Source of the DNA: Terriglobus albidus
Lineage (GTDB): Bacteria > Acidobacteriota > Terriglobia > Terriglobales > Acidobacteriaceae
Length of the DNA stretch: 64,000 bases
Direction: 5' to 3'
Assembly: GCF_008000815.1 (NCBI RefSeq)
Contig: NZ_CP042806.1
Location: 1,550,001 to 1,614,000, forward strand
Numbering within the stretch: position 1 is the first letter of the stretch; the number at the start of each line of letters is the position of its first letter. This document shows positions 2,799 through 59,794 of this stretch, one piece after another. The notes under the pieces are model-generated. The model had not been told where the DNA came from. It did no database searches and worked only from the letters and a program-made list of their open reading frames with translations. Made by a program: the position numbers and the translations under genes.

Positions 2799-4064
2799 TT
2801 ACTTCTCTCCTTTGATCGCAGCCTGCTTGCGCTGATTGTTCAGATGGAAGGCCCCCTCGGTCACAATCCGCTCCGCCAGCGTTACACCGCCAAGCACGAC
2901 GCGCCGGTCGTTCTCTTCCTCGCCCAGTGTTACCTCACGCAGGATGTATCGCTGCGGCCCAATCTGTACGAAGATGTGATCCTTGTTGTCTTCACGGACC
3001 ACTGCAGCATTCGGCACCGTCAGCTTACGGTCGCTACGGCCGGTAAAGGTCATGCTGGCAAGCTCATCAGGCTTCAGGCGGCCGTCAGGATTCGGGACAT
3101 CCATACGCACCTCTACGGTGCGAGTGGCTGGATCGACAATGGGAGAAACAAACGAGAGCCGGCCATTGAGCTGCAGATCCTTCAGCGCAGGTACGCGCAC
3201 TTCGACATCCATCTCCTGCTTCAGGATTCCGGCCTCCTGCTCTGGCACATCTGCTGTGATCCATACATTCGACAGGTCGGCGATGGTGAACGCCGGGTCC
3301 GACGGCTGTACCACCTGCCCGATGGTGATCTCGCGTTTCAAAACCGTTCCGCTCTTTGGAGCAACGATCGGATAGTCGGCGCTCAGTTTTCGCGATGTCT
3401 CCAGTTGCCGTATCTGTGTCTCTGTCATGCCGAGGCCAAGCAGTTGAGTGCGATAGCTCGCCTCCTCGGTGCTTGCCTGCAGCCGCTCGGCGCGTCTCCG
3501 TTCCAGCTCCGCCCGGCCAATCACATCTGCAGCTACCAGTTGTTCTGCGCGCCTTTCAGCCGCCGCGGCAAGCTGCTGCTGCGACGACGCCTTGATCAAG
3601 GCAAACTGCGTGTCCGAAAGATTGGTGCTGTGCAGCGTGGCCAGGACGGCTCCCGCGTGCACGTACTGCCCTTCAAAAACCAGCAGATTCAGAATGCGTC
3701 CGGCAACCGGAGATCCGACGCGCGCAATGCGTTGCGCATCTGTCTCGACACGCGCGGCTACCTGCAAGGTTCCGTTGACATCGGCCATCTGCGGTGTTCC
3801 AAACTTCAGGCTCTCGGCCAGCACCGGCGTCACGGTTACTATGTTTGGATCGCTGGTGTTCGCTGCTGCCTTCTCTTCCTTGGGTTTCGATTTGCAACCT
3901 GTTCCCAGCAACACCGCGACCATCGCCGCGGCCGCTAGAGCATTTTTTCTGTAGGTGTAGTGCAGGGCTTTTGCATCTATGGGCGTTTTCCTCAATGAAA
4001 ACGCCGCTGCACGTTCCTCCCGGGATACCCAGCAATAGGAAAAATGCTTCAACCATCGTGTCAT
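2799..4064 (-). CDS. RND efflux adaptor (membrane fusion protein), CzcB/CusB-like
   Basis: Periplasmic adaptor linking the RND pump to the TolC-like channel, 421 aa from ATG 4064. The start overlaps the stop of the upstream gene as TGATG. A lipoprotein-like segment (AAAAMVAVLLGTGCKSK) puts Cys near residue 57, followed by barrel-sandwich and hairpin segments and the motif VAPKSGTVLKREITIGQVV. Unusually, residues 5-42 are encoded by a dispersed repeat inserted in frame between the start codon and the signal peptide. The lipoprotein signal therefore has an abnormally long n-region, unless translation begins inside the repeat. The mature protein looks intact. Function is secure by family and context; the true start is not. 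Confidence 0.9.
   Translation of the reverse strand: MTRWLKHFSYCWVSREERAAAFSLRKTPIDAKALHYTYRKNALAAAAMVAVLLGTGCKSKPKEEKAAANTSDPNIVTVTPVLAESLKFGTPQMADVNGTLQVAARVETDAQRIARVGSPVAGRILNLLVFEGQYVHAGAVLATLHSTNLSDTQFALIKASSQQQLAAAAERRAEQLVAADVIGRAELERRRAERLQASTEEASYRTQLLGLGMTETQIRQLETSRKLSADYPIVAPKSGTVLKREITIGQVVQPSDPAFTIADLSNVWITADVPEQEAGILKQEMDVEVRVPALKDLQLNGRLSFVSPIVDPATRTVEVRMDVPNPDGRLKPDELASMTFTGRSDRKLTVPNAAVVREDNKDHIFVQIGPQRYILREVTLGEEENDRRVVLGGVTLAERIVTEGAFHLNNQRKQAAIKGEK
3936..4049. repeat. MITE-like dispersed element, subfamily A copy 1
   Basis: About 114 bp bounded by TAGAGCATTTTTTCTG at 3936 and, at the other end, the imperfect inverse GGAAAAATGCTT. It carries the internal hairpin GGCGTTTTC...GAAAACGCC. 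It is closely similar to the copies at 13621 and 30650 and lies inside the 5' end of the efflux adaptor gene, where it is translated in frame without stops. Confidence 0.85.
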
Positions 4065-5416
4065 CACGGCCTCGCTCCCGGCGTCAGTGCGCCCAGTTCT
4101 TCCAGATCGATCAATGCAGACTGGCGCGCGTACTGCGCATCCAGCAAATCGCCGCGCACGCTTTGCAGCACGCGCTGTGCGTCCAGAACCTCAACAATGC
4201 CGCGCTCGCCGAACCGGTAGGCGGACTTCGCCGCCTCTACCGCACTCTCTGCAGCTCGCAGCGATCCGGCTTCCAGCGACGTCACCTGCTGGTCAGCCAG
4301 TTGGTACTGTTCATACGCCCGCTCCAGCGCGCTCACCAGTTCCAGTCGCCGCTGGTCCAGCGTCGCGTTTGCCTGTGAGATGGCTGCCTTTGCATCCGCA
4401 ATCTGTCCACGCCGCCTGTCCCACAGCGGAATCGGAACGGTAATGCCGGCGCGCCAGTAGCGCAAGTCGGGCTGATTTTCAAACTCGGCAAAAGCCGTCG
4501 GCTGCGGAATGCGGAGCGCCTTCTCGCGGTCCAGTGTCGATCGGCTCGCATTCAGTTCCGCTTCAGACTGTGCTACCGCTGGGTGCGCGGTCAGCACCTG
4601 GTCACGCAGCATATCCAAAGCCGGCAGGGTCATGTGCGCTGTGGTTGAGCCTGTGGGAATCAGGTTTGCATCGGCCGGCGCAGCGATGAGAGCGCGCAGG
4701 ATTGCAATCGCCGAAGCGTATTCGATCTGTGCACTGTTCACCGCAAATCGCGCGCGCGCCAGTTCAGCTTCGGCTCGCGTCAGCTCCAGTTTGCCTTTCT
4801 CGCCGACATTGACCTCAACCTCAACCCGCCGGCGAAGGTCCTCTACCAGCGTCAGGTTCTCGCGGGCCTGTTTGATCTGTTCCTGTCGCTTCAGCGCTTC
4901 GTAGAACGCCCGCTGCGTATCGGCCATCACGTTCAGCCCAACGCCGCGCTCAGCCGCTCGCGCGCTTGCGGCGATGGATTCCGCTGCTTTCCGGCGGGCA
5001 CTGCGCTCCGAGGGAATCTCGATCGTCTGGTAACCCGCATAGTGCTGCAACAGGCCCGGAGTGCCGGGTGTCTTGATAGGCCGCGCATACTGCCGGCCCT
5101 GAAAGACCTCGACATTCGGGTTCGTATAAGCGCGGGCCGTCTGTACCGCAGCCTGGCCACGCTGCGTCGCCGCAAGCGCCTCGTGCAGGCGTGGGCTATT
5201 GCGACGCGCCATTGCCAGCGCATCATCGAGTGTCAGCCGCAGCTCGCTGGACCCATGGGCCGCTGCCGCCTGCTGCGGTGCGGGCTCTGCCGGCATCGCA
5301 GCATCCACAGGCGTCTGGGCTACCAGCAAAGCCGCCGGCAACAATGGGAGGAGGAGCAACTTTCCAAGCGTCACACGGCTTCTATGGCAATTCGCTAGCC
5401 AAATAGAAATCCCCAT
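4064..5416 (-). CDS. TolC-family outer-membrane efflux protein (CzcC-like)
   Basis: Outer-membrane channel of the tripartite efflux system, 450 aa. The N-terminus has a positively charged stretch then KLLLLPLLPAALLVAQ, a signal peptide. Two long alpha-helical repeats follow, rich in A, R, E and Q, with RLTLDDALAMARRNSP at the start of the first and YRFGERGIVEVLDAQRVLQ near the end, typical of the outer-membrane efflux protein family. It is the first gene of the minus-strand operon, and its TGA overlaps the adaptor ATG. The 297 bp upstream contain dispersed repeats, and the divergent gene is a sensor kinase. Confidence 0.92.
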   Translation of the reverse strand: MGISIWLANCHRSRVTLGKLLLLPLLPAALLVAQTPVDAAMPAEPAPQQAAAAHGSSELRLTLDDALAMARRNSPRLHEALAATQRGQAAVQTARAYTNPNVEVFQGRQYARPIKTPGTPGLLQHYAGYQTIEIPSERSARRKAAESIAASARAAERGVGLNVMADTQRAFYEALKRQEQIKQARENLTLVEDLRRRVEVEVNVGEKGKLELTRAEAELARARFAVNSAQIEYASAIAILRALIAAPADANLIPTGSTTAHMTLPALDMLRDQVLTAHPAVAQSEAELNASRSTLDREKALRIPQPTAFAEFENQPDLRYWRAGITVPIPLWDRRRGQIADAKAAISQANATLDQRRLELVSALERAYEQYQLADQQVTSLEAGSLRAAESAVEAAKSAYRFGERGIVEVLDAQRVLQSVRGDLLDAQYARQSALIDLEELGALTPGARP

Positions 5417-5713
5417 GTTTCATAGGGATTTGGGCTTCCACGATGTCCCATTTGGTACACCGCTGTCCGCAATCCGGCACTCTGGACAGGCCATACCCGG
5501 GTGCCCCATATCTGCGAAGCAGATGTGGGAGTATCGAGCGAAGCTCGATCCGTTCGTTCTTCCAAGAAGTTGATGTTCTCCGAACTCGACGCGTCAGCCG
5601 GCGTTATCTCGTCCCCTAAATTGGCTCCGGAATTGCTATACAACTCAGCGATGCCCGCCGTTGCTCAGCTTCGCTGGCCCATGCCATCGCCGCCTGCATG
5701 GGAAAATGACACT
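5417..5713. repeat. Divergent intergenic region with GGTGCCCCAT hairpin repeat
   Basis: Gap between the efflux operon and the kinase gene. Positions 5498-5552 match a repeat seen elsewhere here: GGGTGCCCCATA, then the hairpins ATCTGCGAAGCAGAT (5510-5524) and ATCGAGCGAAGCTCGAT (5533-5549). The open frame through this repeat joins the kinase frame but does not look like protein. I found no convincing sigma-54 promoter. Confidence 0.6.
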
Positions 5714-6835
5714 ATGGCCCAGCTTCCATCTGCGCTGCGATCGTCGCATGCCAAGGCGGTGCTTGTCGGTACCCTCGTGGTGTTGTTGGCCATCTTTACC
5801 TGGGCTGTTCCGCCACGCTATGTGGTGTTGCACAACATCCTGCACCATCTCAACATCCTGCCTTTTATGCTCGCCGGGCTCTTCTTCGGCTGGCGTGGCG
5901 CGGCACGGACTGTCCTGTTTGCGGCTCTTCTGTTCCTTCCTTTGATCTACCGTCATTGGTTCCGCGCCCCGCTTGACGCGCAGGATCAGGTCGTCGAGCT
6001 CAGCACCTTCGGCGCTGCCGGTATCATTGCCGGCCTGCTTGCGGACCGCGAGCGCATGCAGCGCCGCCGGGTCGAGACCACCAAGCGGGAGCTGGAGCAC
6101 GTCTACACCGAACTGCGTCAGAATATCGATCAGCTTCGTAAATCAGAGCGTCTCAGCGCGGCCGGCCAACTCTCCGCCAGTCTCGCGCATGAGATCCGCA
6201 ATCCCCTGGCCAGCATCAGCGGCGCCGCCGGTATCCTGGCCCGCGGACAGGCATCCGCAGAGGCTCGCGCTGAGTGTCTGGAGATTCTTACCAAGGAGTC
6301 TCAGCGCCTCAATAAGCTCCTCACGAACTTCCTCGACTTTGCCCGGCCTCGACTTCCACGCATGCAATGGATGGAGCCTGCCGAGATGGTCTCCTCCGTC
6401 GCCGCTCTCGCCCAGCACGCAGCCAGCCGTCAGAACGTGACTTTGGAGGTCCTCCATGACACGGAACTGCCGCCGGTCGAATGCGATCCGGAGCAGATCA
6501 AACAGCTTCTGCTGAACCTTGTTCTGAATGCTATCCAGGCAACCGAGGGCGAAGGAATGGTTACCCTCAACAGCTTTGTGCACGGTGGCAACCTCTGCAT
6601 TGAGGTGCGCGATCAGGGGAAAGGTATAAGTCCCGAAGTTCGCGCTCGCATCTTCGAGCCCTTCTTCACAACCCGCGAAAATGGCACCGGACTCGGTCTT
6701 GCAATCGCCGCCAATATTGCCGGCCAGCACGGTGGAACGCTCACCTGCGCGCCGAATGTTGGCCACGGCGCTATCTTCCGTGTCGAGCTTCCCACCGCAT
6801 CCGCGCCGTTACATCGGCCCGTGGAGGTGGCGTGA
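5714..6835 (+). CDS. Membrane sensor histidine kinase, NtrB/ZraS-like
   Basis: Autophosphorylating sensor, 373 aa from ATG 5714, partner of the response regulator whose GTG start overlaps its TGA by 4 bp. Residues about 15-115 form several transmembrane helices (ILPFMLAGLFFGWRGAARTV) with little periplasmic domain. A short coiled coil follows, then the H box SASLAHEIRNPLASISGA with His near 158, N box LLNLVLNAIQATE, G1 DQGKGI, F box FEPFFTTREN and G2 GTGLGLAIA. All catalytic boxes are intact. An in-frame extension back to 5501 is possible but runs through a repeat, so I prefer the later ATG. The stimulus is unknown; divergence from a metal efflux operon is suggestive only. Confidence 0.85.
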   Translation: MAQLPSALRSSHAKAVLVGTLVVLLAIFTWAVPPRYVVLHNILHHLNILPFMLAGLFFGWRGAARTVLFAALLFLPLIYRHWFRAPLDAQDQVVELSTFGAAGIIAGLLADRERMQRRRVETTKRELEHVYTELRQNIDQLRKSERLSAAGQLSASLAHEIRNPLASISGAAGILARGQASAEARAECLEILTKESQRLNKLLTNFLDFARPRLPRMQWMEPAEMVSSVAALAQHAASRQNVTLEVLHDTELPPVECDPEQIKQLLLNLVLNAIQATEGEGMVTLNSFVHGGNLCIEVRDQGKGISPEVRARIFEPFFTTRENGTGLGLAIAANIAGQHGGTLTCAPNVGHGAIFRVELPTASAPLHRPVEVA

Positions 6836-8211
6836 GCAATCACGTTCTTGTTGTCGATGACGACGTCAGTCTCCGGCGAGTCATGAAGCTGCAGCTTGAG
6901 GAAGCGGGCTACCAGGTCTCCGTCGCTTCCGATGGTGAAGAGGCGTGGCGCATGCTCCGCGAGTCCGAGCCTCAGCTGGTCATCACTGATCTGCGCATGC
7001 CTACAACGGGACTGGAATTGCTCTCGCGCATTACTCAGGCAGGTCTTCGTACGACGGTTATTGTTGTCACGGCCTTCGGCACGGTCGAGACTGCCGTCGA
7101 GGCGATGAAGCTTGGCGCTTATGATTACGTCACCAAGCCTCTCGACTTTGACGCGCTTGTCCTTGTTGTGCATCGCGCGATGGAACGTCAGAACCTCATC
7201 GAAGAGGTCCAGACTCTGCGTTCCGCGCTCGATCAGCGCTATGGCTTCGAAGCGATCGTCGGTCACTCCAAGGGACTTCTACGAGTTCTCGATCAGGCGG
7301 CACGTGTCGCTCAGCGTGACGCAACGGTGCTCATCCAGGGAGAGACCGGCACTGGCAAGGAGCTTGTCGCGCGCGCCATCCATCACAACAGCCGACGTGG
7401 CAAACGCCCGTTTACCGCCATCAACTGCGGCGCCATCCCTCGTGACCTCGTCGAAAGTGAACTCTTCGGCTACACCAAAGGCGCGTTCACCGGAGCTGTT
7501 GCGAACAAAGAAGGCCGGATCGAGTCCACCAACGGTGGCACGCTCTTTCTCGACGAAGTCGGAGAGCTTCCACTTGAAGCTCAGGTCAAGCTGCTGCGAG
7601 TCCTGCAGGAAGGAGAGCTTGCCAAGCTCGGCGCCACCGATCCCATCAAGGTAGATGTTCGCGTCATTGCAGCCACCCATCGTGACCTCTCCGCGATGGT
7701 CGAGGATGGAACCTTTCGTGAAGACCTCTACTATCGCCTTGCCGTCGTTCCGCTCCGTATTCCGCCATTGCGTGAGCGGAGGGAAGATTTACCGGAACTG
7801 ATCGAGGTGCTCTTTGAGCGCGCTCGCAAGCGACACGCTATCGAGCATCTGCGTCTCTCACCCACGGTGCTGCAGCATCTTATCGCCTATCACTGGCCAG
7901 GGAATGTCCGTCAGCTTGAAAATGTGATGGAGCGTCTGGTGGTGCTCTCGACCTCTGAAGTCATCTCCACAGAAGACCTTCCGCCAGAGCTTACTGCTCC
8001 ACCGCGTCCTGCTCCCTTTTGGCTCGACCTTCCAGAGCAGGGCATCAGTCTTGAAGCTCTCGAGCGAGACCTCATCCGCCGCGCGTTGGAGAAGTTCAAC
8101 GGCAACCAGACCCAGGCTGCCCGCTATCTCGATATCAGCCGCCGCACACTCATCTACCGCATGGAAAAGCACGGCCTCGCCCCGGAATCGGCTGCTAAAG
8201 AGGATCTCTAG
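6832..8211 (+). CDS. NtrC-family sigma-54-dependent response regulator
   Basis: DNA-binding activator of sigma-54 promoters, 459 aa from GTG 6832. The receiver domain (about 1-120) has VVDDD, the phospho-acceptor Asp near 52 in VITDLRMP and Lys in VTKPLD. The AAA+ domain (about 145-375) has Walker A GETGTGKELVARAI, the sigma-54 contact loop GAFTGA and Walker B GGTLFLDEVGEL. The C-terminus is a Fis-type helix-turn-helix (NGNQTQAARYLDISRRTLIY). Overlap with the kinase gene shows one transcript. All motifs needed for ATPase and sigma-54 contact are present. Confidence 0.95.
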   Translation: MSNHVLVVDDDVSLRRVMKLQLEEAGYQVSVASDGEEAWRMLRESEPQLVITDLRMPTTGLELLSRITQAGLRTTVIVVTAFGTVETAVEAMKLGAYDYVTKPLDFDALVLVVHRAMERQNLIEEVQTLRSALDQRYGFEAIVGHSKGLLRVLDQAARVAQRDATVLIQGETGTGKELVARAIHHNSRRGKRPFTAINCGAIPRDLVESELFGYTKGAFTGAVANKEGRIESTNGGTLFLDEVGELPLEAQVKLLRVLQEGELAKLGATDPIKVDVRVIAATHRDLSAMVEDGTFREDLYYRLAVVPLRIPPLRERREDLPELIEVLFERARKRHAIEHLRLSPTVLQHLIAYHWPGNVRQLENVMERLVVLSTSEVISTEDLPPELTAPPRPAPFWLDLPEQGISLEALERDLIRRALEKFNGNQTQAARYLDISRRTLIYRMEKHGLAPESAAKEDL

Positions 8212-13620: not shown

Positions 13621-13735
13621 TAGAGCATTTTTCCTGTTGCCGGGTATCCCGGAAGAAGAGTGCTGCGGCGTTTTCATTGCGGAAACGCCCATAAATGCGG
13701 AAACCCTACACTACGCCTACAGAAAAAATGCTCTA
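13621..13735. repeat. MITE-like dispersed element, subfamily A copy 2
   Basis: 115 bp with near-perfect ends TAGAGCATTTTTCCTG and AGAAAAAATGCTCTA. TA lies at both borders, consistent with a TA target duplication. The internal hairpin core is GCGTTTTCATTGCGGAAACGC. The right end supplies the TAG stop codon of dapD. Confidence 0.88.
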
Positions 13736-29965: not shown

Positions 29966-30774
29966 CGCACGGCTCCGGTGCCGGTAACGGCGTTTGGATG
30001 TCCTCGCCAGAAGAGCAGGGCACCAGCGATGGCTTCCGCGACCCGCTGTTGATAGGTGGGGTCCTGGGCGGTGGCCTCATCAAGCGGACCAAGCTCGATT
30101 GCAACCGCGGGGCAAGTGAGGGAATCGAGTTCAGCCAGCCAGGTGCGGTTATTGGTAACGGGTGTACGGGAGCGGGAAATCGCCGCCTGCAGCTCTGAGG
30201 CGAGGCGAAGCGAACGTGTGACCCATGGCGCCTGGGCTTCATTCCAGAGGACAGGTTTGGAGCCCTGGAGAGCCGACTCAGTTTCCGGAAGCGCAGAGGT
30301 GAAGAGGTGGACTCCAGCGGTGTTGCCGGAGGCATGCAGTGTGAGACAGGCAATGGCACCGGAGCGGTTGGCAAGCTCAACCCGGCCATCGCTGGTGAGT
30401 TTGGCGGCATCGTCCGGTGTCGTGTGCGTCAGAACAACTTTGAAGCCGCGGACGATCAGTAAGGATTGCAGGCGGTTAGCGAAGGCAATGGTCACGTCGC
30501 GTTCCGGAAGTTTTTCCGTAAGCCGTGCTCCGGTATCGGGACCACCGTGAGCTGCGTCGAGAAGAATAATGGGGGACTGTGCAGGGGTTTGCGCGCGGGC
30601 GGCGGGCAGCAGGAGCGCCGCTACCGCCGCCGCAAACAACGCGGGTTTGGAGCATTTTTCCTGTAGGTGTAAAGTCGGGCTTCCGCATCGACGGGCGTTT
30701 TCCGTAATGAAAACGCCGCTGCTCTCCTCTATCGGGATACCCAACAACAGGAAAAATGCTCTAATCCAGGGCAT
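29962..30774 (-). CDS. N-acetylmuramoyl-L-alanine amidase (Amidase_3)
   Basis: Periplasmic zinc amidase cleaving the glycan-peptide bond, 270 aa from ATG 30774. PIILLDAAHGGPDTGARL holds the first His, LPERDVTIAFANRLQSLL a Glu, CLTLHASGNTAG the second His, and AVAIELGPLDEATA the catalytic Glu, so the site is intact. About the first 42 residues are encoded mostly by a dispersed element, and only then comes the hydrophobic signal segment ALFAAAVAALLLPAARAQ, which has no start codon of its own. The start overlaps the end of the DUF1015 gene by 14 bp. Confidence 0.88.
   Translation of the reverse strand: MPWIRAFFLLLGIPIEESSGVFITENARRCGSPTLHLQEKCSKPALFAAAVAALLLPAARAQTPAQSPIILLDAAHGGPDTGARLTEKLPERDVTIAFANRLQSLLIVRGFKVVLTHTTPDDAAKLTSDGRVELANRSGAIACLTLHASGNTAGVHLFTSALPETESALQGSKPVLWNEAQAPWVTRSLRLASELQAAISRSRTPVTNNRTWLAELDSLTCPAVAIELGPLDEATAQDPTYQQRVAEAIAGALLFWRGHPNAVTGTGAVR
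30650..30763. repeat. MITE-like dispersed element, subfamily A copy 3
   Basis: 114 bp from GAGCATTTTTCCTGTAGG to CAACAGGAAAAATGCTCTA, with internal GGGCGTTTTCC/GAAAACGCC. Its right end supplies the TAG stop of the DUF1015 gene, and its body is translated in frame as the N-terminus of the amidase. Confidence 0.88.
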
Positions 30775-32137
30775 AGATGGCAAGACCGCTCAGCAATTTC
30801 GGATAGAAGTCCGTGGACTTCTGCGGCATGACTTCGTTCGCGAAGGCGACATCGCGGAGCTGTTGCAGCGTTACCGGCTTGGTAAGGAAAGCAACGTCTG
30901 CCTCGCCTTTATTTACCAGTTCCACGGCCTCGGATGCTTCGCGAAGGTACTTCACATTGCCCAGCTTCGTCACCTGTTCCTGCGAGAGACCGAGGATCTG
31001 CGCAAAGAGCAGGCCATGGAGCTGGACGACATCGAGCTGGCGCTGGCGCGGAGAAAACTCCTGCAGCTTCGGAGCAATGGCCTCAGATTTTGCGGTGAGC
31101 AGCCAGCTTCCATGGGCGGTGACAGCGACGAAGGCTACACCTTCGGTGGCATCGAGCGCAGCCTTGAGGGCTACATGGTTGCTGCCGTTCAGCGGAGCGG
31201 CGTCAAAGTACGGACCAGCCTTGGCGAGTAGATCATCGGCCGAGAAGTTCTGCAGGCCATTGAGCACGCGGTGCGTCGGCAGAATGGTGATTCCGGGGGC
31301 GGCCATATTGACGAAGGTCATCATCATGGCAGCTTCGGGGTAGGCCGGCGTGGGCAGATCCGTGGCGGTGACGTGCAGCTTTTCTGCCTCATCGGCGCCG
31401 GCGGTTTCAGAGCCCGGAGCAGGATTGAAAGGCAGACCGAGCTCGGCGGCGCGCTCCTTGGAGTAGGCGACCGAGGTCTCGTAGCGGTGATGTCCGTCAG
31501 CGATGATGAGCTTCTTGTCCTGCATGGCGCCGACGATGATGCGGATCAGGGATGGGTCGGTGATCTTCCAGAGTTTGTGGAGGACGCCATAGTCGTCGAC
31601 GACGGCCTGATCGGGGGCGGGGCCGTTCTCAAAGAGAAGGCGCTCCACGCTGAAGCCGGGGTCGTTGTAGAGCATGTAGATCTGCTCGCAGTAGGCACGG
31701 GTGGCTTTGAACAACGCCAGGCGATCGGACTTGTGCTTAGGGAAGGTCTGTTCGTGGCGATAGACCACCTGATCGGCGTAATCGTAGAGGTGGCCGAGGG
31801 CGATAAAGCCGCGGCGCTCACGTGTTTCGGTGGTGCCGGGGACGGTATAGACCTGCGAGTAGCCGTAGATGGCCGGTTCCGCCTCTTCGACGAGCACCTG
31901 GTCCTTGCGCCACGCGTTGAGGGTATCGGCGGCGCGGGTGTAGACGTTCTCTCCCTCTTCGGTATCGCCGGGGAAGTGTTTACCCAGGATCACACGGATG
32001 AGATTTAGCGGGTTCCTCGCGTAGTAGCGGTCCTGCATCTCCGGGGTGATCTTGTCATAAGGCTGGGTGACGACATCCTCCAGCTTGACCTTGGCGGGGT
32101 TATAACGAAAGGCGCGGAACGGGTAAATGCGAGCCAT
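30761..32137 (-). CDS. DUF1015 family protein
   Basis: Cytosolic protein of 458 aa from ATG 32137 (18 bp inside the longest frame). Family landmarks are IYPFRAFRYNPAKVKLEDVV, VTQPYDKITPEMQDRYYARN, GFIALGHLYDYADQVVYRHE and LIIADGHHRYETSVAYSKER. Biochemical function is unknown; homologues occur in bacteria and archaea, sometimes near serine biosynthesis genes, which is not the case here. The C-terminus ends LAIYALD followed by a TAG belonging to a dispersed element, so the original 3' end may have been altered. Confidence 0.88.
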   Translation of the reverse strand: MARIYPFRAFRYNPAKVKLEDVVTQPYDKITPEMQDRYYARNPLNLIRVILGKHFPGDTEEGENVYTRAADTLNAWRKDQVLVEEAEPAIYGYSQVYTVPGTTETRERRGFIALGHLYDYADQVVYRHEQTFPKHKSDRLALFKATRAYCEQIYMLYNDPGFSVERLLFENGPAPDQAVVDDYGVLHKLWKITDPSLIRIIVGAMQDKKLIIADGHHRYETSVAYSKERAAELGLPFNPAPGSETAGADEAEKLHVTATDLPTPAYPEAAMMMTFVNMAAPGITILPTHRVLNGLQNFSADDLLAKAGPYFDAAPLNGSNHVALKAALDATEGVAFVAVTAHGSWLLTAKSEAIAPKLQEFSPRQRQLDVVQLHGLLFAQILGLSQEQVTKLGNVKYLREASEAVELVNKGEADVAFLTKPVTLQQLRDVAFANEVMPQKSTDFYPKLLSGLAIYALD

Positions 32138-32213
32138 GCGTGCGGAAGGCAACACTCCAATCTTTAGGTTCTAGGAGAGATTGTACTTGGGGGCCGCAGG
32201 GACCTGCGGCCCG

Positions 32214-38027: not shown

Positions 38028-38144
38028 TAGAGCATTTCTCCTAATGCTGTAACTTTGGATAAATCTGCGAATGCCGTTTTCTTCGCGGAAAACGGACGCA
38101 AACAGCCAAAACTCCGCACACTACACCTTAGGAGAAGTGCTCTA
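38028..38144. repeat. MITE-like dispersed element, subfamily B copy 1
   Basis: 117 bp between TAGAGCATTTCTCC and GGAGAAGTGCTCTA, with TA at both borders. Core hairpin: GCCGTTTTC...GAAAACGG. The outer ends and core resemble subfamily A, but the arms (TTTGGATAAATCTGCGAATG, CAGCCAAAACTCCG) are shared only with 59680. The right end contains AGGAGA, the only Shine-Dalgarno candidate for the GTG at 38147. Confidence 0.88.
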
Positions 38145-38146: not shown

Positions 38147-38875
38147 GTGACAGCAAACGTGCAAGCGCCGAGGGCCCGTGTCTCGCTTCTGTTGATTGAC
38201 GATGACCGCTCGCTGGGGGCGCTGCTGGCGGAGTACTGCGAACCTTCAGGCTTCAGCGTGACGTGCGCGCGCAGTGGAGAAGAGGGGATTCAGCGCGTGA
38301 CGGAACGCCCGTTTCACTTCATCGTGCTGGATGTGATGCTGCCGGGCATCGATGGCTTTGAGACACTGCGGCGGCTGCGGGAGATCACGCGGACTCCGGT
38401 GCTGATGCTGACCACGCGAGGAGCGACGCGCGATCGCGTCCATGGTTTGAACGATGGCGCCGACGACTATCTGACGAAGCCCTTTCAGCCGGAAGAGCTG
38501 GTCGCGAGAATTGGCAGTATTCTGCGCCGGACACAACCTGCTGCGGTGGAGAGCTCAAACAGACTTGTAGGCGATCTCTTCCTGGATGAGGGCTCTCGTA
38601 CGGTGTCGTGTAGCGGCAGGCTGGTAGAGCTGACCGGAGGTCAATATGAGTTGCTGCGGCTTCTGCTGGAGTGCCCTGGTGAAGCGCGTCCGCGGGAGGA
38701 CCTGATCCGGCGCATCTTCGGACGCGAACCGCATGGTGTCGACCGCTCTATCGACAACCTGGTGAACAACCTCAGGAAGCGGTTGGGAGTTCATCCGGAC
38801 GGTACAGATCGCTTCAAGTGTGTCCGCAACCTTGGATATAGCTATGTGCTCCCACAGGATGGAACCGGCCCGTGA
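38147..38875 (+). CDS. OmpR-family response regulator
   Basis: Two-component transcription factor, 242 aa from GTG 38147. The receiver has LLLIDDDRSLGALLAEY, phospho-acceptor Asp in FIVLDVMLPGIDGFETLRRL, Thr in VLMLTTRG and Lys in DDYLTKPFQPEELVARI. The winged helix includes LTGGQYELLRLLLECPGEA, REDLIRRIFGR and DNLVNNLRKRLGVHPDG, and ends CVRNLGYSYVLPQ. Resembles CpxR. The only apparent ribosome site is inside the upstream dispersed element. Its TGA overlaps the kinase GTG by 4 bp. Confidence 0.92.
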   Translation: MTANVQAPRARVSLLLIDDDRSLGALLAEYCEPSGFSVTCARSGEEGIQRVTERPFHFIVLDVMLPGIDGFETLRRLREITRTPVLMLTTRGATRDRVHGLNDGADDYLTKPFQPEELVARIGSILRRTQPAAVESSNRLVGDLFLDEGSRTVSCSGRLVELTGGQYELLRLLLECPGEARPREDLIRRIFGREPHGVDRSIDNLVNNLRKRLGVHPDGTDRFKCVRNLGYSYVLPQDGTGP

Positions 38876-52050: not shown

Positions 52051-52180
52051 CGGAGGGCTGCCCTGGGGCGTCTTATGGGTGCAGGACGTGGTTGCAACAT
52101 CCCCGTGGGCTGGGCCGAAGGGCAGCGAGTCCACTGCAGCCATCGCAGTAATGCTTTCAACATCCCCGTTGCGCCAAGAG
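52051..52180 (+). promoter_or_regulatory. NAD+-I (nadA motif) riboswitch-like leader, two tandem domains
   Basis: Upstream of nadA two domains repeat in tandem, each ending CAACATCCCCGT (52095 and 52158, 63 bp apart) and opened by GGGCTGC (52055) or GGGCAGC (52120). In domain 1 GGGG (52065-52068) can pair with CCCC (52101-52104), enclosing CGTC/GACG. In domain 2 ACTGC/GCAGT (52133-52149) forms a hairpin. The nadA motif is a known tandem NAD+-sensing RNA found mostly in Acidobacteria before nadA. The match is from memory of that class; no covariance model was run. Confidence 0.75.
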
Positions 52181-52203
52181 CGTGACTGAAGGCAGGAAGA
52201 GAA

Positions 52204-53328
52204 GTGAGTGTTCTGGAAGAAGTACTGGAATCGCCGCAGGCTGACGTCTGCTCGCTGGACAACTATCTGTCCCAACCCGACCACACCATGGATGCCCGTA
52301 TCGCAACCGCACGCAAGATTCTGGGCAAAACCACCATCATCCTGGGGCATCACTACCAGCGCGATGAGGTGATCCGCTTTGCCGACTACACCGGCGACAG
52401 TTACAAGCTTTCGAAGGTGGCGGCGCAGACCGACGCGAAGTATCTGATCTTCTGCGGCGTGCACTTCATGGCTGAGAGCGCCGATGTCCTGGGCAAGGGC
52501 GGGCAGCAGGTAATACTGCCGGATCTGAACGCCGGATGTTCCATGGCGGATATGGCAGAGATCGGCCAGGTAGAGGACTGTTGGGAGCAGTTAGAACGGG
52601 CCGGGGTTGCGGCGGATGTGATGCCGCTGACCTATATGAACTCCTCGGCGGCAATCAAAGCCTTCTGCGGCGAGCGCGGCGGACTGGTCTGTACCTCGTC
52701 GAACGCACCGGGAGCCTTTACCTGGGCCTTCGACCGCAAAGAAAAGATTTTGTTCCTCCCCGACCAGCATCTTGGCCGTAATACGGCGTATGCGATGGGC
52801 ATCGGGCTGGACGAGATGGTGGTATGGGATCCGTGGGTGATCGGCGGCGGTGTCTCGCCGGCGAAGCTGAAGGCCGCGAAGGTGATCCTGTGGAAGGGCC
52901 ATTGTTCAGTGCATCAGCGCTTCCTGCCGCAGCATGTGGACCAGGTGCGGGCGAACTATCCGGGGATCCAGGTAATTGTGCATCCGGAGTGCCGGTGGGA
53001 GGTCTGCCAGAAGGCAGACGCTACGGGATCGACCGAGAAGCTGATTGAGGTGATTGAGCGTGCACCCGAGGGCGCGATGTTTGCCGTGGGGACCGAGATC
53101 CACCTGGTCAATCGCATGGCGAAGCTCTTCGAAGGCCGCAAGAAGATTATCACGCTGGATGATTCGGGCTGTCTGTGCACGACGATGTATCGCATCAGCC
53201 CGCAGCACCTGGCATGGGCGCTGGAGAACCTGGTTGAGGGCAACGTTGTCAACCGCATCAAGGTGGATGACGACGTGAAGCACTGGGCCCGAGTGGCGCT
53301 GGATCGGATGCTGGAAATCACGGTCTAG
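52204..53328 (+). CDS. nadA: Quinolinate synthase A
   Basis: [4Fe-4S] enzyme condensing iminoaspartate (from NadB) with dihydroxyacetone phosphate; 374 aa from GTG 52204, with AGGAAG upstream. TTIILGHHYQRDEVIRFADY binds substrate. The cluster cysteines lie in YLIFCGVHFMAESADVLGK, RGGLVCTSSNAPGAFTWAF and LDDSGCLCTTMYRI, and VHPECRWEVCQKADATGST is the late motif. It follows a riboswitch-like leader that would shut it down when NAD+ is abundant. The next gene begins 2 bp after its stop. Confidence 0.96.
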   Translation: MSVLEEVLESPQADVCSLDNYLSQPDHTMDARIATARKILGKTTIILGHHYQRDEVIRFADYTGDSYKLSKVAAQTDAKYLIFCGVHFMAESADVLGKGGQQVILPDLNAGCSMADMAEIGQVEDCWEQLERAGVAADVMPLTYMNSSAAIKAFCGERGGLVCTSSNAPGAFTWAFDRKEKILFLPDQHLGRNTAYAMGIGLDEMVVWDPWVIGGGVSPAKLKAAKVILWKGHCSVHQRFLPQHVDQVRANYPGIQVIVHPECRWEVCQKADATGSTEKLIEVIERAPEGAMFAVGTEIHLVNRMAKLFEGRKKIITLDDSGCLCTTMYRISPQHLAWALENLVEGNVVNRIKVDDDVKHWARVALDRMLEITV

Positions 53329-54800: not shown

Positions 54801-55337
54801 ATGCTTCAGATTGGCGAGAAGTTTCCGAATTTTTCCGTGGTAGCCACGGTCAGCCGCGATAAGGACAAGGCCTTTGAGACGATCACCGAGGAGTCCTTCC
54901 CCGGCAAGTGGAAGCTTTACTTCTTCTGGCCGAAGGATTTCACGTTCGTTTGTCCGACCGAGATTGCAGGCTTCGGCAAGCTGAACCAGGAGTTTGCGGA
55001 TCGTGACTGCCAGGTCCTGGGCGGATCGACCGACTCCGAGTTCGTGCACCTGGCGTGGCGCAACAACCACGAGGACCTGCGCGACCTGCCCTTCCCCATG
55101 CTTGCCGATATCAAGCGTGACCTGTCGGGCCAGCTCGGCATTCTGGATCCGGATGGCGGCGTCTGCCAGCGTGCGACCTTCCTGGTGGATCCGAACAACG
55201 TGATCCAGTTTGTGTACGTCACCGCCGGTTCGGTGGGCCGCAATCCGCAGGAAGTGCTGCGTGTTCTGGACGCTCTGCAGACCGACGAGCTCTGCCCCTG
55301 CAACTGGCAGAAGGGCGAAGAGACCCTGGCCGTCTAA
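54801..55337 (+). CDS. ahpC: Peroxiredoxin AhpC
   Basis: Thiol peroxidase reducing hydrogen peroxide and organic hydroperoxides; 178 aa, AAGGAG 8 bp before ATG. The peroxidatic Cys lies near 51 in FTFVCPTEIAGFGKL, and LPFPMLADIKRDLSGQLGIL and VCQRATFLVDPNNVIQF follow. The resolving end has TDELCPCNWQKGE with two Cys. This C-terminus resembles the mycobacterial AhpC that is reduced by AhpD, encoded next. The region before it (54698-54800) has the stem GACCGG/CCGGTC near 54753. Confidence 0.95.
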   Translation: MLQIGEKFPNFSVVATVSRDKDKAFETITEESFPGKWKLYFFWPKDFTFVCPTEIAGFGKLNQEFADRDCQVLGGSTDSEFVHLAWRNNHEDLRDLPFPMLADIKRDLSGQLGILDPDGGVCQRATFLVDPNNVIQFVYVTAGSVGRNPQEVLRVLDALQTDELCPCNWQKGEETLAV

Positions 55338-55418
55338 ACAGAGTTGAACCGAAGAGGTGGCCGCTGTTGGAGTGGCCGCCTTTTCTTGCGCCCGAATGGC
55401 GCAGTGAGAGGAGATTTC

Positions 55419-55964
55419 ATGGCACTCGATGATTTGATCGGCAGCCTGCCCGCCTATGCGAAGGACCTGAAGCTGAACTTCAGCTCGCTGGTCCGGCAGA
55501 ACACTGAGCTCAGCCCGCAGCAGCTTTGGGGAACCGTGGTGAGCACCGCGATCGCAACCCGTAATCCTGAGCTGACGGCGGCCACGATTGAAGAAGCAGC
55601 CAAGGTGTTGACCCCGGTCGCCCTGGACGCCGCCAAGGCAGCCGCGGCGATCATGGGCATGAACAACATCTACTACCGTTTTCATCACCTGACGGACAAC
55701 GAGAAGTACGCGACACTGCCCGCGCGCCTGCGCATGAACGTGCTACGCACCCACAACGTCGACCACGTGGACTTTGAGCTGTGGTGCCTGGCTGTTTCCG
55801 CGGTGAACGCCTGCGGCAAGTGCGTGAGCTCGCACGAGAACGTGGTTCGCCAGAAGGGAATGACGGAAGAGGTGGTGAATGCCGCCATCCGCGTGACCTC
55901 AGTGATTCACGCCATCGGCGTAGTGCTGGATGGGGAGAAGGCGTCGCCTACGCCCGCGGCGTAG
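55419..55964 (+). CDS. ahpD: Alkylhydroperoxidase AhpD
   Basis: Reductant partner of AhpC with a CxxC redox site; 181 aa from ATG 55419, with GAGAGGAG upstream. LDDLIGSLPAYAKDLKLNFS is the family N-terminus. MGMNNIYYRFHHLTDNEKYA is central, and WCLAVSAVNACGKCVSSHEN carries the CxxC with the downstream His. The longer frame from 55344 has no family character. It sits 81 bp behind ahpC and probably shares its transcript. Confidence 0.95.
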   Translation: MALDDLIGSLPAYAKDLKLNFSSLVRQNTELSPQQLWGTVVSTAIATRNPELTAATIEEAAKVLTPVALDAAKAAAAIMGMNNIYYRFHHLTDNEKYATLPARLRMNVLRTHNVDHVDFELWCLAVSAVNACGKCVSSHENVVRQKGMTEEVVNAAIRVTSVIHAIGVVLDGEKASPTPAA

Positions 55965-55971
55965 GCGAAGT

Positions 55972-56118
55972 TGAATGGTTGAAAAGTTGAATGGTTGAAT
56001 AGTGAATCCGTGGTGAGGTGGATGATTAGCCTCATCACGGATTTCTTCTTTCACGTGATCGCGGAATTGTCTGGGTTAGGAACCATTCAACTATTCAACA
56101 ATTCAACCATTCAACAAA
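55972..56118. repeat. Large inverted repeat of TTGAAT arms around a terminator hairpin
   Basis: Left arm GTTGAATGGTTGAAAAG... (55972-56002) and right arm ...CCATTCAACTATTCAAC (56081-56118) are inverse arrays of the TTGAAT repeat. They flank a stem AATCCGTGGTGAGG/CCTCATCACGGATT (56005-56043), 13 of 14 pairs. The unit separates convergent ahpD and M28 genes. Confidence 0.8.
56005..56043. terminator. Bidirectional terminator between ahpD and M28 gene
   Basis: 14-bp stem with one mismatch and an 11-nt loop, followed by TTCTTCTTTC on the plus strand. Located midway between convergent stops. Confidence 0.65.
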
Positions 56119-56134
56119 TCGTGCCACCTTAGTC

Positions 56135-57148
56135 CTAAGGTTTCTTCTCCGGCTTCCCACCCGGATTCCACGTGGGCTTCCAGTTGGTGTCGATGAGCCA
56201 CTCTACAGGCGCTTCCATGGAGGCGATGGCGGTGGTCATGTGTTTGAAGTCGATGGTGGTGATCTCGTCGGTGACCTGGTGGTAGTCGGTGTGGAGGCCG
56301 TAGCTGGAGACAGTGTGGGCGATGATGCCTTCGAGGGCCAGGCCGTAGTTGTCGCTGCGCATGAAGAAGTTTTCCTTCGGATGCGGATCCTGCACGAGGT
56401 GGGCGCCGTGCTTGGCGAGCTCCGGCCCGAGGGTGCTGCGCTCAAAGCCGGTGAGCCAGAGGGTGCCTTCGGGGACGGCTGAGTCAGAACGGCCGATCAT
56501 CTCGAATTCCAGGTTGGCAACGATGCTGGTGAGCGGAATGGGAGGATGGGCGAGGAAGGCCTGGGATCCCAGGCCGCCGAACTCCTCCGCACCAAAGAGG
56601 GCGAAGACAACGGTGCGCTTGGGCGGCTTGGCGTGGGCGAGATAGCGGGCGAGGTTGAGAACGGCAGTCGTGCCAGAGGCGTCGTCATCTGCTCCGTTGT
56701 AAATCGCGTCTCCATTCACGGGCTGTTTGGCAACGCCCAGGTGGTCGAGATGGGCGGTGAGCAGAATGACTTCAGACTTCAGCTTCGGATCGGTGCCGGG
56801 AAGGATGGCGACGGCGTTCCAGGTCTCGAAGCGGTCGGCGGGAGCATAGCGTTGTTCGATGCGTTGTTTGGCGCGCTCCGGGAGCTCGACCGGGGCTTTT
56901 TGAAGGTAGCTGCCATTGTTGCCGGGTTGCAGGCCGATCTCCTGGAAGACGGCTGCGGCGTACTGGGCTGCAATGTGTTCATCACGTGTGGCGGAACCGC
57001 GGCCCTGCAGTGCATCGGATGCGAGAAAATTCATGTCGGCGCGAACCTGCTGTTCCAGAACGGATTGCGGGCTTTGTGCGTCCAACAGGCAGGTCGTCAG
57101 GGTCAGCAGCGCGGCGGCGCCAAAGGTCATGCAAGAGCGTTTGAACAT
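56135..57148 (-). CDS. Secreted M28 family metallo-aminopeptidase
   Basis: 337 aa from ATG 57148. The signal peptide is FGAAALLTLTTCLLDAQ. The dinuclear zinc site is in VILLTAHLDHLGVA, YNGADDDASGTTAVLNLARY, VFALFGAEEFGGLGSQAF, VANLEFEMIGRSD and YHQVTDEITTID, with the ligand His, Asp, Glu-Glu, Glu/Asp and His in order. The TATAAT at 57155-57160 on the minus strand would start transcription at the ATG, so the message may be leaderless. The upstream extension overlaps the divergent gene and is rejected. Confidence 0.9.
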   Translation of the reverse strand: MFKRSCMTFGAAALLTLTTCLLDAQSPQSVLEQQVRADMNFLASDALQGRGSATRDEHIAAQYAAAVFQEIGLQPGNNGSYLQKAPVELPERAKQRIEQRYAPADRFETWNAVAILPGTDPKLKSEVILLTAHLDHLGVAKQPVNGDAIYNGADDDASGTTAVLNLARYLAHAKPPKRTVVFALFGAEEFGGLGSQAFLAHPPIPLTSIVANLEFEMIGRSDSAVPEGTLWLTGFERSTLGPELAKHGAHLVQDPHPKENFFMRSDNYGLALEGIIAHTVSSYGLHTDYHQVTDEITTIDFKHMTTAIASMEAPVEWLIDTNWKPTWNPGGKPEKKP

Positions 57149-57195
57149 GGCCGGATTATAGGCAAAGGCACGGACCAGACCCAATTCCTGCGACA

Positions 57196-58314
57196 ATGGT
57201 GAGCGTGTTGAGGCTGCGTCGTGCATTGCGCTTCTTTGTGGTTCTGCCAATCGTTCTACTGGCGGGTTGCGGTGACTTCTTTCCGCCGATCAATGGTGGC
57301 GGGAGCAGTTCGGGATCGGACATCGTGTACGTTGCGAATGCCAGTTCGACCTCGGTGACGGCCTATGCCATGTCGACAGGAGCGCTGGTAGCCGTAAGCG
57401 GATCGCCGTACACGCTGAGCTTTACGCCCACGGCGATTGCGGTGACTCCTGCGAATACCTTTGTGTATGTCGCGGGTAGCGGCGTGGTGTATGTGTATTC
57501 CATCGGTACCGGTGGTGTGCTGACGGCGGCGAACAACGGCGCGGCGGTGGCCAATGGCAATGTGGTGTCGATGGACATCTCGCCGGACGGGAAGTGGCTG
57601 TTTACGTTGGATGCCGACGGGACCACGATTGAGGAGTACTCCATCAACACATCGACCGGCATACTGACGGCTGCCAGCGGAGCGTTGTATACCTTCGGCG
57701 CGGGAACGACGCCAGTACCTAAAGCGATCAAGGTCGCTCCTAATGGCAACTACGTCATCGTGGCTCTGGGAACCGCGGGAGAGATCGTCTACGGCTTCAA
57801 TACGTCGACAGGTGCGATGAGCGAGAGTCAGCGGCTGTCGGCTCCGGGGTCGACCAGCGATAACGCCATTGCGATGGACAAGAATACGGCGTATCTGTTC
57901 ATCGCCCGCAGCGGGAACTCGGCGGGGCTGGGGGTCTATACCATCGGCACTGGCGGGGCGCTGACAATTGTGAGCGGATCGCCCTTTGCGACGAGTGGCC
58001 AGTCGACTTCGGTAGTGGTAGATAACACAGCAACGTACGTCTATGTGGGGAACCAGGGTGACGGTACGATCTCTGGTTTCACTATCGGTACCGGAGGCGC
58101 GCTGACAGCGCTCAGTGGATCGCCGTACTCGGCCGGCAAGACCATGACCGCGCTGGCAGCGGACTCCACGGGCAAGTACATTCTGGCGGCGGCCAATGGA
58201 GGCTCGCCAGATCTGGGGATGTACGCCTTCGACTCTTCGACAGCGGGACGGATTTATACGGTCAGCTCGACGACGACAGCGTACGGTCCGGTAGCCGTGG
58301 CAGTGACGCACTAA
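57196..58314 (+). CDS. Beta-propeller lipoprotein (lactonase / YncE-like)
   Basis: 372 aa. Lipobox LPIVLLAGCGDFFPP with Cys near 25. About seven blade repeats follow, each with a variation of IVYVANASSTSVTAYAMSTG and GALTALSGSPYSAG. ISPDGKWLFTLDADG and VYVGNQGDGTISGFTIGTGG are typical of the 6-phosphogluconolactonase-like fold. Many Acidobacteria have such secreted propellers; an enzymatic role is not shown. The stop is part of a 14-bp repeat that is present three times. Confidence 0.85.
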   Translation: MVSVLRLRRALRFFVVLPIVLLAGCGDFFPPINGGGSSSGSDIVYVANASSTSVTAYAMSTGALVAVSGSPYTLSFTPTAIAVTPANTFVYVAGSGVVYVYSIGTGGVLTAANNGAAVANGNVVSMDISPDGKWLFTLDADGTTIEEYSINTSTGILTAASGALYTFGAGTTPVPKAIKVAPNGNYVIVALGTAGEIVYGFNTSTGAMSESQRLSAPGSTSDNAIAMDKNTAYLFIARSGNSAGLGVYTIGTGGALTIVSGSPFATSGQSTSVVVDNTATYVYVGNQGDGTISGFTIGTGGALTALSGSPYSAGKTMTALAADSTGKYILAAANGGSPDLGMYAFDSSTAGRIYTVSSTTTAYGPVAVAVTH

Positions 58315-58346
58315 CGTGGACGCACTAACGTGGACGCACTAACGTG
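58305..58346. repeat. Three tandem 14-bp repeats over a stop codon
   Basis: GACGCACTAACGTG three times without mismatch. The first copy holds the TAA of the propeller gene. Since 14 is not a multiple of 3, the three TAA copies fall in all three frames. A further GTGACGCACTA occurs near 58376. Confidence 0.9.
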
Positions 58347-58453
58347 ACGCCCCAATCCCAATGGAAGCCTTACAGGTGACGCACTAGGTGCATGCCGCGA
58401 ACCGTGATTCACGCAAGATCATCTGCAGATAGTATCCTCGGAGCTGTCCCGGC

Positions 58454-59590
58454 GTGATCTTCCCGTCATTCCAACGTAGATTGTTCGCGCTCGCCGCAGC
58501 CTTTGCGCTGCTGTCGGGCTGCAGCCGCCTGCGCCCTAAACCCAAGGACGAGTATGTCTATGTCACCGCCAAGGGAACGTATCTGCGCGACCGTTTGGCC
58601 GCCGTGTCAAATCGTACGGGAAATGTCGACAACGGGCAGAAGCTGAAGATACTCGAGCGCCAGCGGCACTACTTCCGCGTGGTGACCGATAAGGGCGAGA
58701 CGGGCTGGATCAACGAGCGGGCGGTTGTGACGCAGGATATCGTCGATCAGTTTGAGGCATTGAAGAAGGAATATGCACGGCAGCCTGCGGTGGCCAGCGG
58801 TGTGGTGCGGGACGATGTGTACCTGCACCTGAAGCCGGGCCGCGATACAGACCGTTTCTACCGGCTGAATGAGGGAGAGAAGCTGGGGCTCATTGCCAGG
58901 GCTACGCTGCCCAAACCTGTGCCAGGTGGAGTTCCGCAGCAGCAGGCGAAGGAAGGTGAGCCGCCCGCGCCTCCTCCGATGGAGGACTGGTGGATGGTGC
59001 GCTCGGGAGACCGGTCGGGCTGGTTGCTCTCGCGCATGATGGACGTCGACGTGCCTGATTCGGTGGCGCGGTATGCCGAAGGGCAGCGCATTGTGGGCAA
59101 CTATGTGCTGACGAAGGTCGAAGACGATGAGGTTGAAGGCACGGACAAGATGGTGCCCATCTTCGTCACACTCATGAATAGCTGGAAGGCCGGGCTGCCG
59201 TACGACTTCGACCAGGTGCGCGTCTTCACCTGGAACCGGGCCAAGCACCGGTATGAGACGGCGTTCCGCGATCGCAATATCCAGGGTTTCCTGCCGGTGG
59301 AGGTCAAGACCGATCCGGGGCAGCCGAATGCACCGCGGTCGAGCGCCAGCACGCTGCCGGCGCCGTCGTTTATTTATCGGGTCTTGGCTGCGGACAACGG
59401 GCCAGTGATCCCCGATCCTGTGACCGGAATCTCGAAGCCCTCAAAGCTGGTACAGAAGACCTACCGGCTTGAGGGAAATATCACGCGGCGGGTGCTGCGG
59501 CCGGGCGAGACTCCGCAGGCGGAGGCGAAGGCCAGCGAAGATGTGGCGACCAAGGCGGCCGCGAAGAAGCCTGCCAAAAAACGCAAGTAG
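58454..59590 (+). CDS. Lipoprotein with bacterial SH3 domains
   Basis: 378 aa from GTG 58454. Lipobox LFALAAAFALLSGCSRL. The first SH3b-like segment runs about 35-95 (YVTAKGTYLRDRLAAVSNRT, VVTDKGETGWINERAVV). The second is about 115-200 (DDVYLHLKPGRDTDRFYRLN, WWMVRSGDRSGWLLSRMMDV). A third region of unknown fold follows (VPIFVTLMNSWKAGLPYDFD), then a Lys/Ala-rich tail. SH3b domains often bind peptidoglycan peptides. It is upstream of pqqA with a dispersed element between, so not obviously part of the PQQ operon. Confidence 0.85.
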   Translation: MIFPSFQRRLFALAAAFALLSGCSRLRPKPKDEYVYVTAKGTYLRDRLAAVSNRTGNVDNGQKLKILERQRHYFRVVTDKGETGWINERAVVTQDIVDQFEALKKEYARQPAVASGVVRDDVYLHLKPGRDTDRFYRLNEGEKLGLIARATLPKPVPGGVPQQQAKEGEPPAPPPMEDWWMVRSGDRSGWLLSRMMDVDVPDSVARYAEGQRIVGNYVLTKVEDDEVEGTDKMVPIFVTLMNSWKAGLPYDFDQVRVFTWNRAKHRYETAFRDRNIQGFLPVEVKTDPGQPNAPRSSASTLPAPSFIYRVLAADNGPVIPDPVTGISKPSKLVQKTYRLEGNITRRVLRPGETPQAEAKASEDVATKAAAKKPAKKRK

Positions 59591-59679
59591 TTGCGAGGCA
59601 AAGGTTTGTCTGGGGCCTCCGCGGCCCGACTTTACAGACGTTGCTCGGTTCAGGCATTCTCTCTCCACTGAGGCGTACT

Positions 59680-59794
59680 TAGAGCAATTCTCCTGATCTG
59701 TAGTTTTGGATAAATCTGCGAATGCCGTTTTCTTCGAAGGAAAACGGCGCAAACAGCCAAAACTCCGCTCTACACCTTTAGGAGATTTGCTCCA
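59680..59794. repeat. MITE-like dispersed element, subfamily B copy 2
   Basis: 115 bp from TAGAGCAATTCTCCTG to TAGGAGATTTGCTCCA, with core GCCGTTTTC/GAAAACGGC. The arms TTTGGATAAATCTGCGAATG and CAGCCAAAACTCCG match 38028-38144. It lies 55 bp before pqqA, where the promoter or leader of the PQQ operon should be. Confidence 0.88.

Follow-up and report, generated by a model that had tools for sequence, protein, structure and literature searches.

A stretch of 64,000 nucleotides of Terriglobus albidus (contig NZ_CP042806.1, positions 1,550,001 to 1,614,000; hereafter the window) holds five short repeats, each at or near the start or end of a gene, which raises the question of what these repeats are and why they should lie where genes begin or stop. 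A first-pass annotation of the window had described them as two subfamilies of non-autonomous derivatives of IS630/Tc1-like transposons, with shared ends and a preference for gene boundaries. In our analysis, the five repeats are very probably copies of a high-copy, non-autonomous family of miniature inverted-repeat transposable elements (MITEs) of the IS630/Tc1-mariner type, with an excess of insertions in stop codons; this degree of confidence applies to the identification as MITEs and to the excess itself, and for its cause the probability is divided among the explanations weighed below. All five copies are present where they had been reported, each with an nhmmer E-value of 5e-27 or less (strands are those of the family consensus):

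3936..4048, + strand: copy 1, subfamily A (E 2.6e-29)
13621..13735, - strand: copy 2, subfamily A (E 5e-27), TA borders intact at both ends
30649..30763, + strand: copy 3, subfamily A (E 3.2e-29)
38028..38144, - strand: copy 4, subfamily B (E 4e-35)
59680..59794, - strand: copy 5, subfamily B (E 8e-36)

Alignment of the five copies reveals one family with two arm types, A in copies 1–3 and B in copies 4 and 5, which have the terminal repeat and a GTTTTC/GAAAAC core in common. The shared ends described earlier hold for the terminal repeat, but the exact end motif is lost at the right border of copy 1 (TGCTTCAA), the left border of copy 3 (TTGGAGC) and the right border of copy 5 (GCTCCA). The A and B arms bear out the two subfamilies, a number that is nevertheless an understatement, as units of ~155 bp and of ~47–50 bp and other-genus types also occur (see below).

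The family consists of TA-flanked palindromes of ~115 bp. The pattern TAGAGCA-N80-110-TGCTCTA matches the genome of the window 83 times and a reversed control pattern 3 times, far more often than chance would give. Copy 3, used as the sole DNA query, gave at least 43 near-full matches (40 of 320 first-look candidates were scored). Counts were made in a sample of four stretches of this genome, covering 1.664 of 6.41 Mb and including the window; there, 105 profile matches were found, 95 of which (length ≥95 bp and score >45) were retained as near full length, and extrapolation gives about 370–400 copies in the genome. The 69 A copies that were aligned are ~112–122 bp long, with an end stem of ~17 bp and no transposase gene.

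To locate the insertions relative to genes, the elements were excised in silico and each insertion TA was classed with a simple, home-made gene finder. Stop codons account for 43 of the 95 near-full elements and gaps for 42 (23 where the neighbouring genes are co-directional, 16 where they diverge and three where they converge); a further nine are inside a called gene and one is at an edge. Eight of the nine are within 24 nt of one or other end of the gene and the ninth is 82 nt from a start. When only non-coding and stop-codon TAs are considered, stop codons (TAA or TAG) received 42 of 81 insertions but make up 932 of 7273 background TAs (P = 3.7e-17); the count of 81 omits the inside-gene cases, the edge case, non-TA sites and the second members of tandem pairs. 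Thus, the preference for gene boundaries is confirmed and can be narrowed to the in-frame stop codon, and the copies are not scattered at random in intergenic centres.

Part of this excess is explained by the sequence of the target. C is the commonest base before the insertion TA, and the rates per 1000 TAs are 42 for CTAG (17 of 405), 28 for CTAA (28 of 997), 17 for ATAG and nine for CTAC, with none at all among the 1665 TAs in ATAT, ATAC and GTAC together. IS630 itself reportedly prefers CTAG, to judge from the title of a 1991 paper by Tenzen and Ohtsubo. Three calculations nevertheless led us to reject the view that local base context accounts for the entire excess: a tetramer-matched simulation, in which 17.3 stop-codon insertions were expected and the maximum in 20000 runs was 33, against 42 observed; the intergenic tetramer rates, from which 10.0 were expected; and a logistic model that included six flanking bases, in which the odds ratio for a stop codon was 3.7 (bootstrap 2.3–6.3). 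We also discarded the possibility that the target preference is shaped by outward ATG-CTC-TAN starts, since YTAR sites are likewise occupied by IS630 elements whose ends are unrelated (L086, L189, L233 and L236).

The excess recurs in other sets of elements, which are not fully independent because some insertions are common to relatives. Scanning named genomes for a 24-base end pattern yielded 119 stretches, of which 80 were listed, with records of the window genome possibly left out; the 80 loci come from T. albidus DSM 26559 (G008), the Acidobacteria metagenome-assembled genomes (MAGs) SH_60_12 and Bin6.3, and Granulicella mallensis X5P3. Edge and inside-gene cases aside (six in T. albidus and four in the MAGs), stop codons hold 18 of 41 insertions in T. 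albidus (149 of 1349 TAs), 24 of 42 in the MAGs (124 of 980 TAs) and, with a borderline P of 0.05, two of six in G. mallensis (19 of 296 TAs). In two other genera, nine of 16 insertions outside genes are in stops (27 of 463 TAs; 17 of 18 loci usable), as are five of 12 in a hold-out set of the window genome outside the sampled stretches (29 of 330 TAs; 13 of 28 usable); the loci dropped, one of 18 and 15 of 28, have inexact ends, and each set includes one inside-gene case. Moreover, in 15 of 15 comparisons that span the stop, at 13 distinct sites, the gene of the relative also ends at this TA, with the stop in frame. The 15 include one tandem pair twice (362381/362491) and the site of copy 3 twice (window genome and G008), and one of the 13 sites, 340432, is not empty, as G008 holds a copy nearby; seven further comparisons did not span the stop and were excluded, and sites without an alignment contribute none.

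Insertion with duplication of a TA was established by comparing the flanks of 26 elements from a 464-kb stretch of the window genome and of 30 matches from the syntenic 400 kb of G008, both with each other and with a further genome, G017. Clean empty sites, found in relatives and in the window genome, hold a single TA, as in GACACGA-TA-AAAAGTT, the counterpart of GACGCGA-TA-element-TA-AAAAGTT, and confirm the TA duplication that the first-pass annotation had expected; further examples are R3 219365 of the window genome, empty in G008, and 126558, 177327, 208596 and 270183 of G008, empty in the window genome. Among the window copies, 1, 2 and 3 are filled at matching places in G008, where the sites of copies 4 and 5 lack the element, the junction at the former not being a clean single TA. 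In G017, copies 1, 3 and 5 are absent from their sites, copy 4 could not be placed and the site of copy 2 is not clean, with 1276 bp extra (G017:C4, about 2629102–2630379, ~1.28 kb); this segment was considered as an autonomous element and rejected, as, read by eye, it lacks the family ends. Since copies are filled in one and empty in the other Terriglobus genome, insertion continued after the two genomes parted.

Which transposase moved the units? Matching ends, TAGAGCATTTTC...AGGTGTA, are found on insertion sequences (ISs) of the IS630 group elsewhere in the genus and in the family. TAGAGC stands at both ends in seven of the 32 IS630 loci listed (one of which, L190, is a contig-end fragment); the end bases of L187, L188, L218, L223 and L224 match at 20–25 of 26 positions, those of L220 at 17 and those of L231 at 15, whereas the best pairs expected by chance match at 10–15. 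Two of the seven belong to the genus of the window genome:

L187, in G014, which does not carry the family: ends TAGAGCATTTTCTGTTGAGCTGTA and TAGAGCATTTTCGGACGAGGTATA
L188, in G015, a carrier: TAGAGCA ends, TAGAGCAAAGTTGAGGTTAGTGTA and TAGAGCAGAATTCAGTTTAGTGTA

At the level of the family, TAGAGC ends are clear in L218, L223 and L224 and weaker in L220 and L231, and one end of L224, TAGAGCATTTCTCTTTTAGGTGTAT, closely resembles the A end, TAGAGCATTTCTCCTG(C/T)AGGTGTA. In a 28-tip tree without support values (33 loci were given; L230, L234, L237, L240 and L241 were left out, having no transposase match), all seven TAGAGC-end elements fall in one half, which also includes IS630 elements with other ends, apart from the IS630 of the window genome. 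The latter (L086/L087) was rejected as the parent because its ends differ. DDE_3 was found in four of ten genomes with end-pattern matches (two partial), and a scan for lone ends that might belong to a longer partner, in the 1.664-Mb sample and 0.4 Mb of G008, listed 13 one-ended or short matches, none of which was judged a full IS. The search for an IS with matching ends thus succeeded in relatives and failed in the window genome itself. Together, the single-TA empty sites, the preference for CTAG and CTAA and the like-ended IS630 in genus and family uphold the assignment to non-autonomous IS630/Tc1 derivatives, and the end sequences make this IS630 group the probable mover.

We propose that a transposase supplied in trans by an IS630 group with TAGAGCATTTTC-N5-AGGTGTA ends would bind the terminal repeats, cut out the 115-bp unit and paste it into a TA, preferably that of CTAG or CTAA, duplicating the TA. 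The first base of the unit next to the TA is a G. A stop codon of either kind, TAA or TAG, that received the unit at its TA would therefore be re-formed as TAG, and such insertions would leave the gene undamaged. Survival in a compact genome, together with this self-healing end, would then produce the excess. This last step is the weakest of the proposal and would probably explain only a part of the excess. Selection for compatible ends, as suggested earlier, is one candidate cause; the data do not separate it from targeted insertion.

Several observations weigh against this proposal or against the identification of the family. The self-healing end makes a stop codon as safe as the 3′ flank but not safer, and TAs 0–12 nt past the stop show no excess (two elements, 2.6 expected), those at 12–30 nt holding seven elements against 3.4 expected; convergent gaps, likewise, hold three elements in 1126 TAs, compared with 17 in the 333 stop-codon TAs that face a convergent gene. 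In the sample of the window genome none of five subfamily B copies is in a stop, yet one B copy of G008 is. The seven TAGAGC-end IS630 elements, too few to judge the preference of the transposase, lie inside called genes (three), in gaps (three) and in a stop codon (L223). The gene calls rest on the home-made finder, and the 80 named loci, found by their end pattern, are biased to near-consensus A copies. Several empty sites have small extra changes and are not a clean single TA, and some are unpaired. No IS630 with matching ends was found in the window genome, where both DDE_3 matches have other ends, so that the family is probably immobile there at present; nor was any DDE_3 match found in the element-rich genomes G100, G121 and G086, whose movers may have been lost or undetected. 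Finally, A copies in the sample are on average 81% identical, with 94.8% for the best pair and a median of 89.7% for the nearest neighbour, values that indicate no recent burst in the sample.

If insertion were simply random at YTAR and every other placement counter-selected, the near absence of insertions deep in genes would follow, and the use of YTAR by IS630 elements with unrelated ends would fit as well. Such a pure survival bias is a reasonable possibility, though we hold it to be somewhat doubtful, because the nearby and seemingly harmless TAs just past the stop and in convergent gaps are not enriched. Active placement, by insertion coupled to translation termination or by positive selection of the hairpin as a signal for mRNA 3′ ends, would fit an excess that peaks at the in-frame stop codon, is absent 0–12 nt downstream and extends to genes with convergent neighbours. 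For the five window copies, moreover, RNA folding predicts stable hairpins whichever strand is read (z −2.5 to −6.9), the end stem contains many double changes (columns 12/125 and 13/124), and between co-directional genes there is an orientation bias, 32:10 in the window-genome sample and 31:16 in the 80 named loci, which we treat as a lead. Set against this, G008 has no orientation bias (7:6) and neither do convergent stops (9:8 and 8:7), the covariation of the end stem could equally reflect symmetric transposase sites across subfamilies, and only one of seven like-ended IS630 elements (one of four outside genes) is in a stop, too few to reveal a preference. Active placement is on balance unlikely as the cause. 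Were it true, the family would act as a regulatory element dispersed through the genome and not as a parasite that the host tolerates; it is at best a tentative idea that transposition finds its TAs through translation termination, or that a portable 3′-end cassette of stop and hairpin ends hundreds of mRNAs.

A different mover is much harder to reconcile with the data. A Y1 or REP-associated tyrosine transposase (RAYT) mechanism is not expected to produce the TA duplication seen here. Elements of the repetitive extragenic palindromic (REP) or REPIN type, which depend on a Y1 tyrosine transposase (RAYT or TIRYT) for their movement and are known in Acidobacteria, would also be palindromic, of high copy number and mainly outside genes, and the genome has seven Y1_Tnp matches; the accessible part of a 2013 survey adds that Acidobacteria, including G. 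mallensis, carry Y1 transposases and that TAG stops are often provided by GTAG REPs (PMC3733652). None of the seven Y1 genes is directly flanked by elements, however, and these transposases were rejected as movers on that ground: the nearest element is ~630 bp away for L096 and ~1.4 kb for L097, and the other five have none in their 1.5-kb flanks. The units, of ~115 bp with TAGAGCA at both ends, are not 20–40 bp palindromes with a GTAG or CGTC tag, and it is IS630 ends that match them. We regard a REP/Y1 origin as highly improbable, and retain the IS630-type MITE.

As a kind, the IS630-type MITE is known, and stop codons supplied by repeats have precedents in BOX and GTAG REPs. IS630 and ISY100 insert at TA and duplicate it, according to the portion available of PMC2170065, and the present units share the TA target and its duplication while lacking a transposase gene. 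The 127-bp enterobacterial repeat known as ERIC, IRU or RU-1 has TA ends, duplicates TA and forms in-frame gene fusions, in so far as the parts available of two papers describe it (PMC2229807; PMC2759123); it resembles the present family in all three respects (copy 1 is a fusion, see below) and differs in its 7-bp terminal repeat, ~17 bp here, and in its host phylum (PMC2229807, in part), and no stop-codon statistic was found in the accessible text of the same papers. RUP of Streptococcus pneumoniae, at 107 bp, also targets TA and has end repeats in common with an IS630 element (PMC2229807, same portion), and is thus similar as a small TA-targeted unit with IS630-matching ends; set against it, the present family under-fills convergent gaps and over-fills stop codons. 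In S. pneumoniae, too, 58 genes overlap a BOX element and 36 of them take their stop codon from it, but unlike the present family BOX is composite and tied to ISSpn2 (PMC3049150, passages available). The termini of GTAG REPs often give a TAG stop to flanking open reading frames (ORFs), but these repeats are 20–40 bp long and often tied to Y1, and TA duplication is not mentioned in the accessible part of the paper (PMC3733652). Literature searches, with subscription journals mostly outside reach, returned no paper on this MITE family, and in the portions available of the literature on BOX, GTAG REPs, ERIC and RUP we did not meet a codon-level stop excess with a control for context and a comparison with relatives. 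The family adds a large MITE lineage, with probable IS630 parents, in an understudied phylum, and is a well-resolved case for asking which places in a compact genome are open to small mobile DNA; a preference for a single in-frame codon in several genomes makes the choice between targeted insertion and survival directly testable. It also matters for annotation, as almost half of the near-full copies in the sampled quarter of the genome (43 of 95) lie in a stop codon.

The host genes of the window copies illustrate these placements:

2799–4067, - strand: HlyD-type lipoprotein gene (Pfam HlyD), with copy 1 inserted among its N-terminal codons
13733–14650, - strand: gene with Pfam THDPS_N_2/Hexapep, with copy 2 within its stop codon
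13733..13735, - strand: TAG stop of the latter gene, made of the TA border and the G of copy 2
30761–32155, - strand: DUF1015 gene, with copy 3 within its stop codon
30761..30763, - strand: TAG stop of the DUF1015 gene; G017, without the element, has an in-frame TAA at the same TA
38147–38875: response-regulator gene (Pfam Response_reg/Trans_reg_C), with a GTG start 2 nt beyond the end of copy 4

Copy 1 reads in frame through ~36 residues near the N-terminus of the lipoprotein, in a frame that is kept in G008, and the segment it encodes is probably translated; in the two genomes, its share of the protein includes the charged part ahead of the lipoprotein signal. Copy 4 places an AGGAG 12 nt upstream of the GTG of the response regulator, a long spacing, and this motif may act as ribosome-site sequence. 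Four of the five copies hence provide stop (copies 2 and 3), coding (copy 1) or, putatively, ribosome-site sequence (copy 4), in agreement with the first-pass annotation. Copy 5 is intergenic, upstream of a small, putatively pqqA-like ORF at 59850.

At the DNA level (E ≤ 0.001), matches were found in four of 41 genomes, namely the window genome, G008, G012 and G015, all of one genus (four of its 19). By ftsK, the last three are the closest to the window genome, with 89–91% identity (from a 387-base fragment in G012), followed by G017 at 82%, in which there was no DNA match at this threshold and one decayed relative (profile E 1e-9) within the 0.4 Mb examined. A looser end pattern has at least one match in 44 of 150 genomes of the order, many of the single matches being necessarily due to chance, since a control pattern also matches in many genomes; the counts reach 115 in G008, 83 in the window genome and 12–21 in five genomes of two other genera. 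These other-genera relatives, within the Acidobacteriaceae, are equal in architecture and length and have different arms. Several matches that lie at separate places in G151 are identical over the part shown, a sign of probable recent movement in that genome. In the subfamilies of G121 and G151, the two ends of a subfamily match each other closely, and ends as well as inner sequences differ between subfamilies, providing a natural series for the co-evolution of transposase and ends.

Size variants include 47–50-bp palindromes built of end arms, tandem units with one TA in common, and B units of ~155 bp with an extra hairpin (CCCCAGCGAAC/GTTCGCTGGG) in one arm:

G000 222739–222892: ~155-bp B variant, L047
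G000 397916–398075: ~155-bp B variant, L055
G008:C28 912196–912348: ~155-bp B variant

In T. albidus, A elements also stand in arrays of three or four, head to tail at ~114-bp spacing (L299 1262–1720 and 4761–5102; L281 693–1137), which may have arisen by repeated insertion at the border TA or by recombination. At the MAG locus L273 (3012–3241), an A element is nested within a B element and splits it; B is therefore the older there. An Rfam scan of the window matched nadA riboswitches only, as a tandem pair at 52090–52193, upstream of the ORF at 52204–53328.

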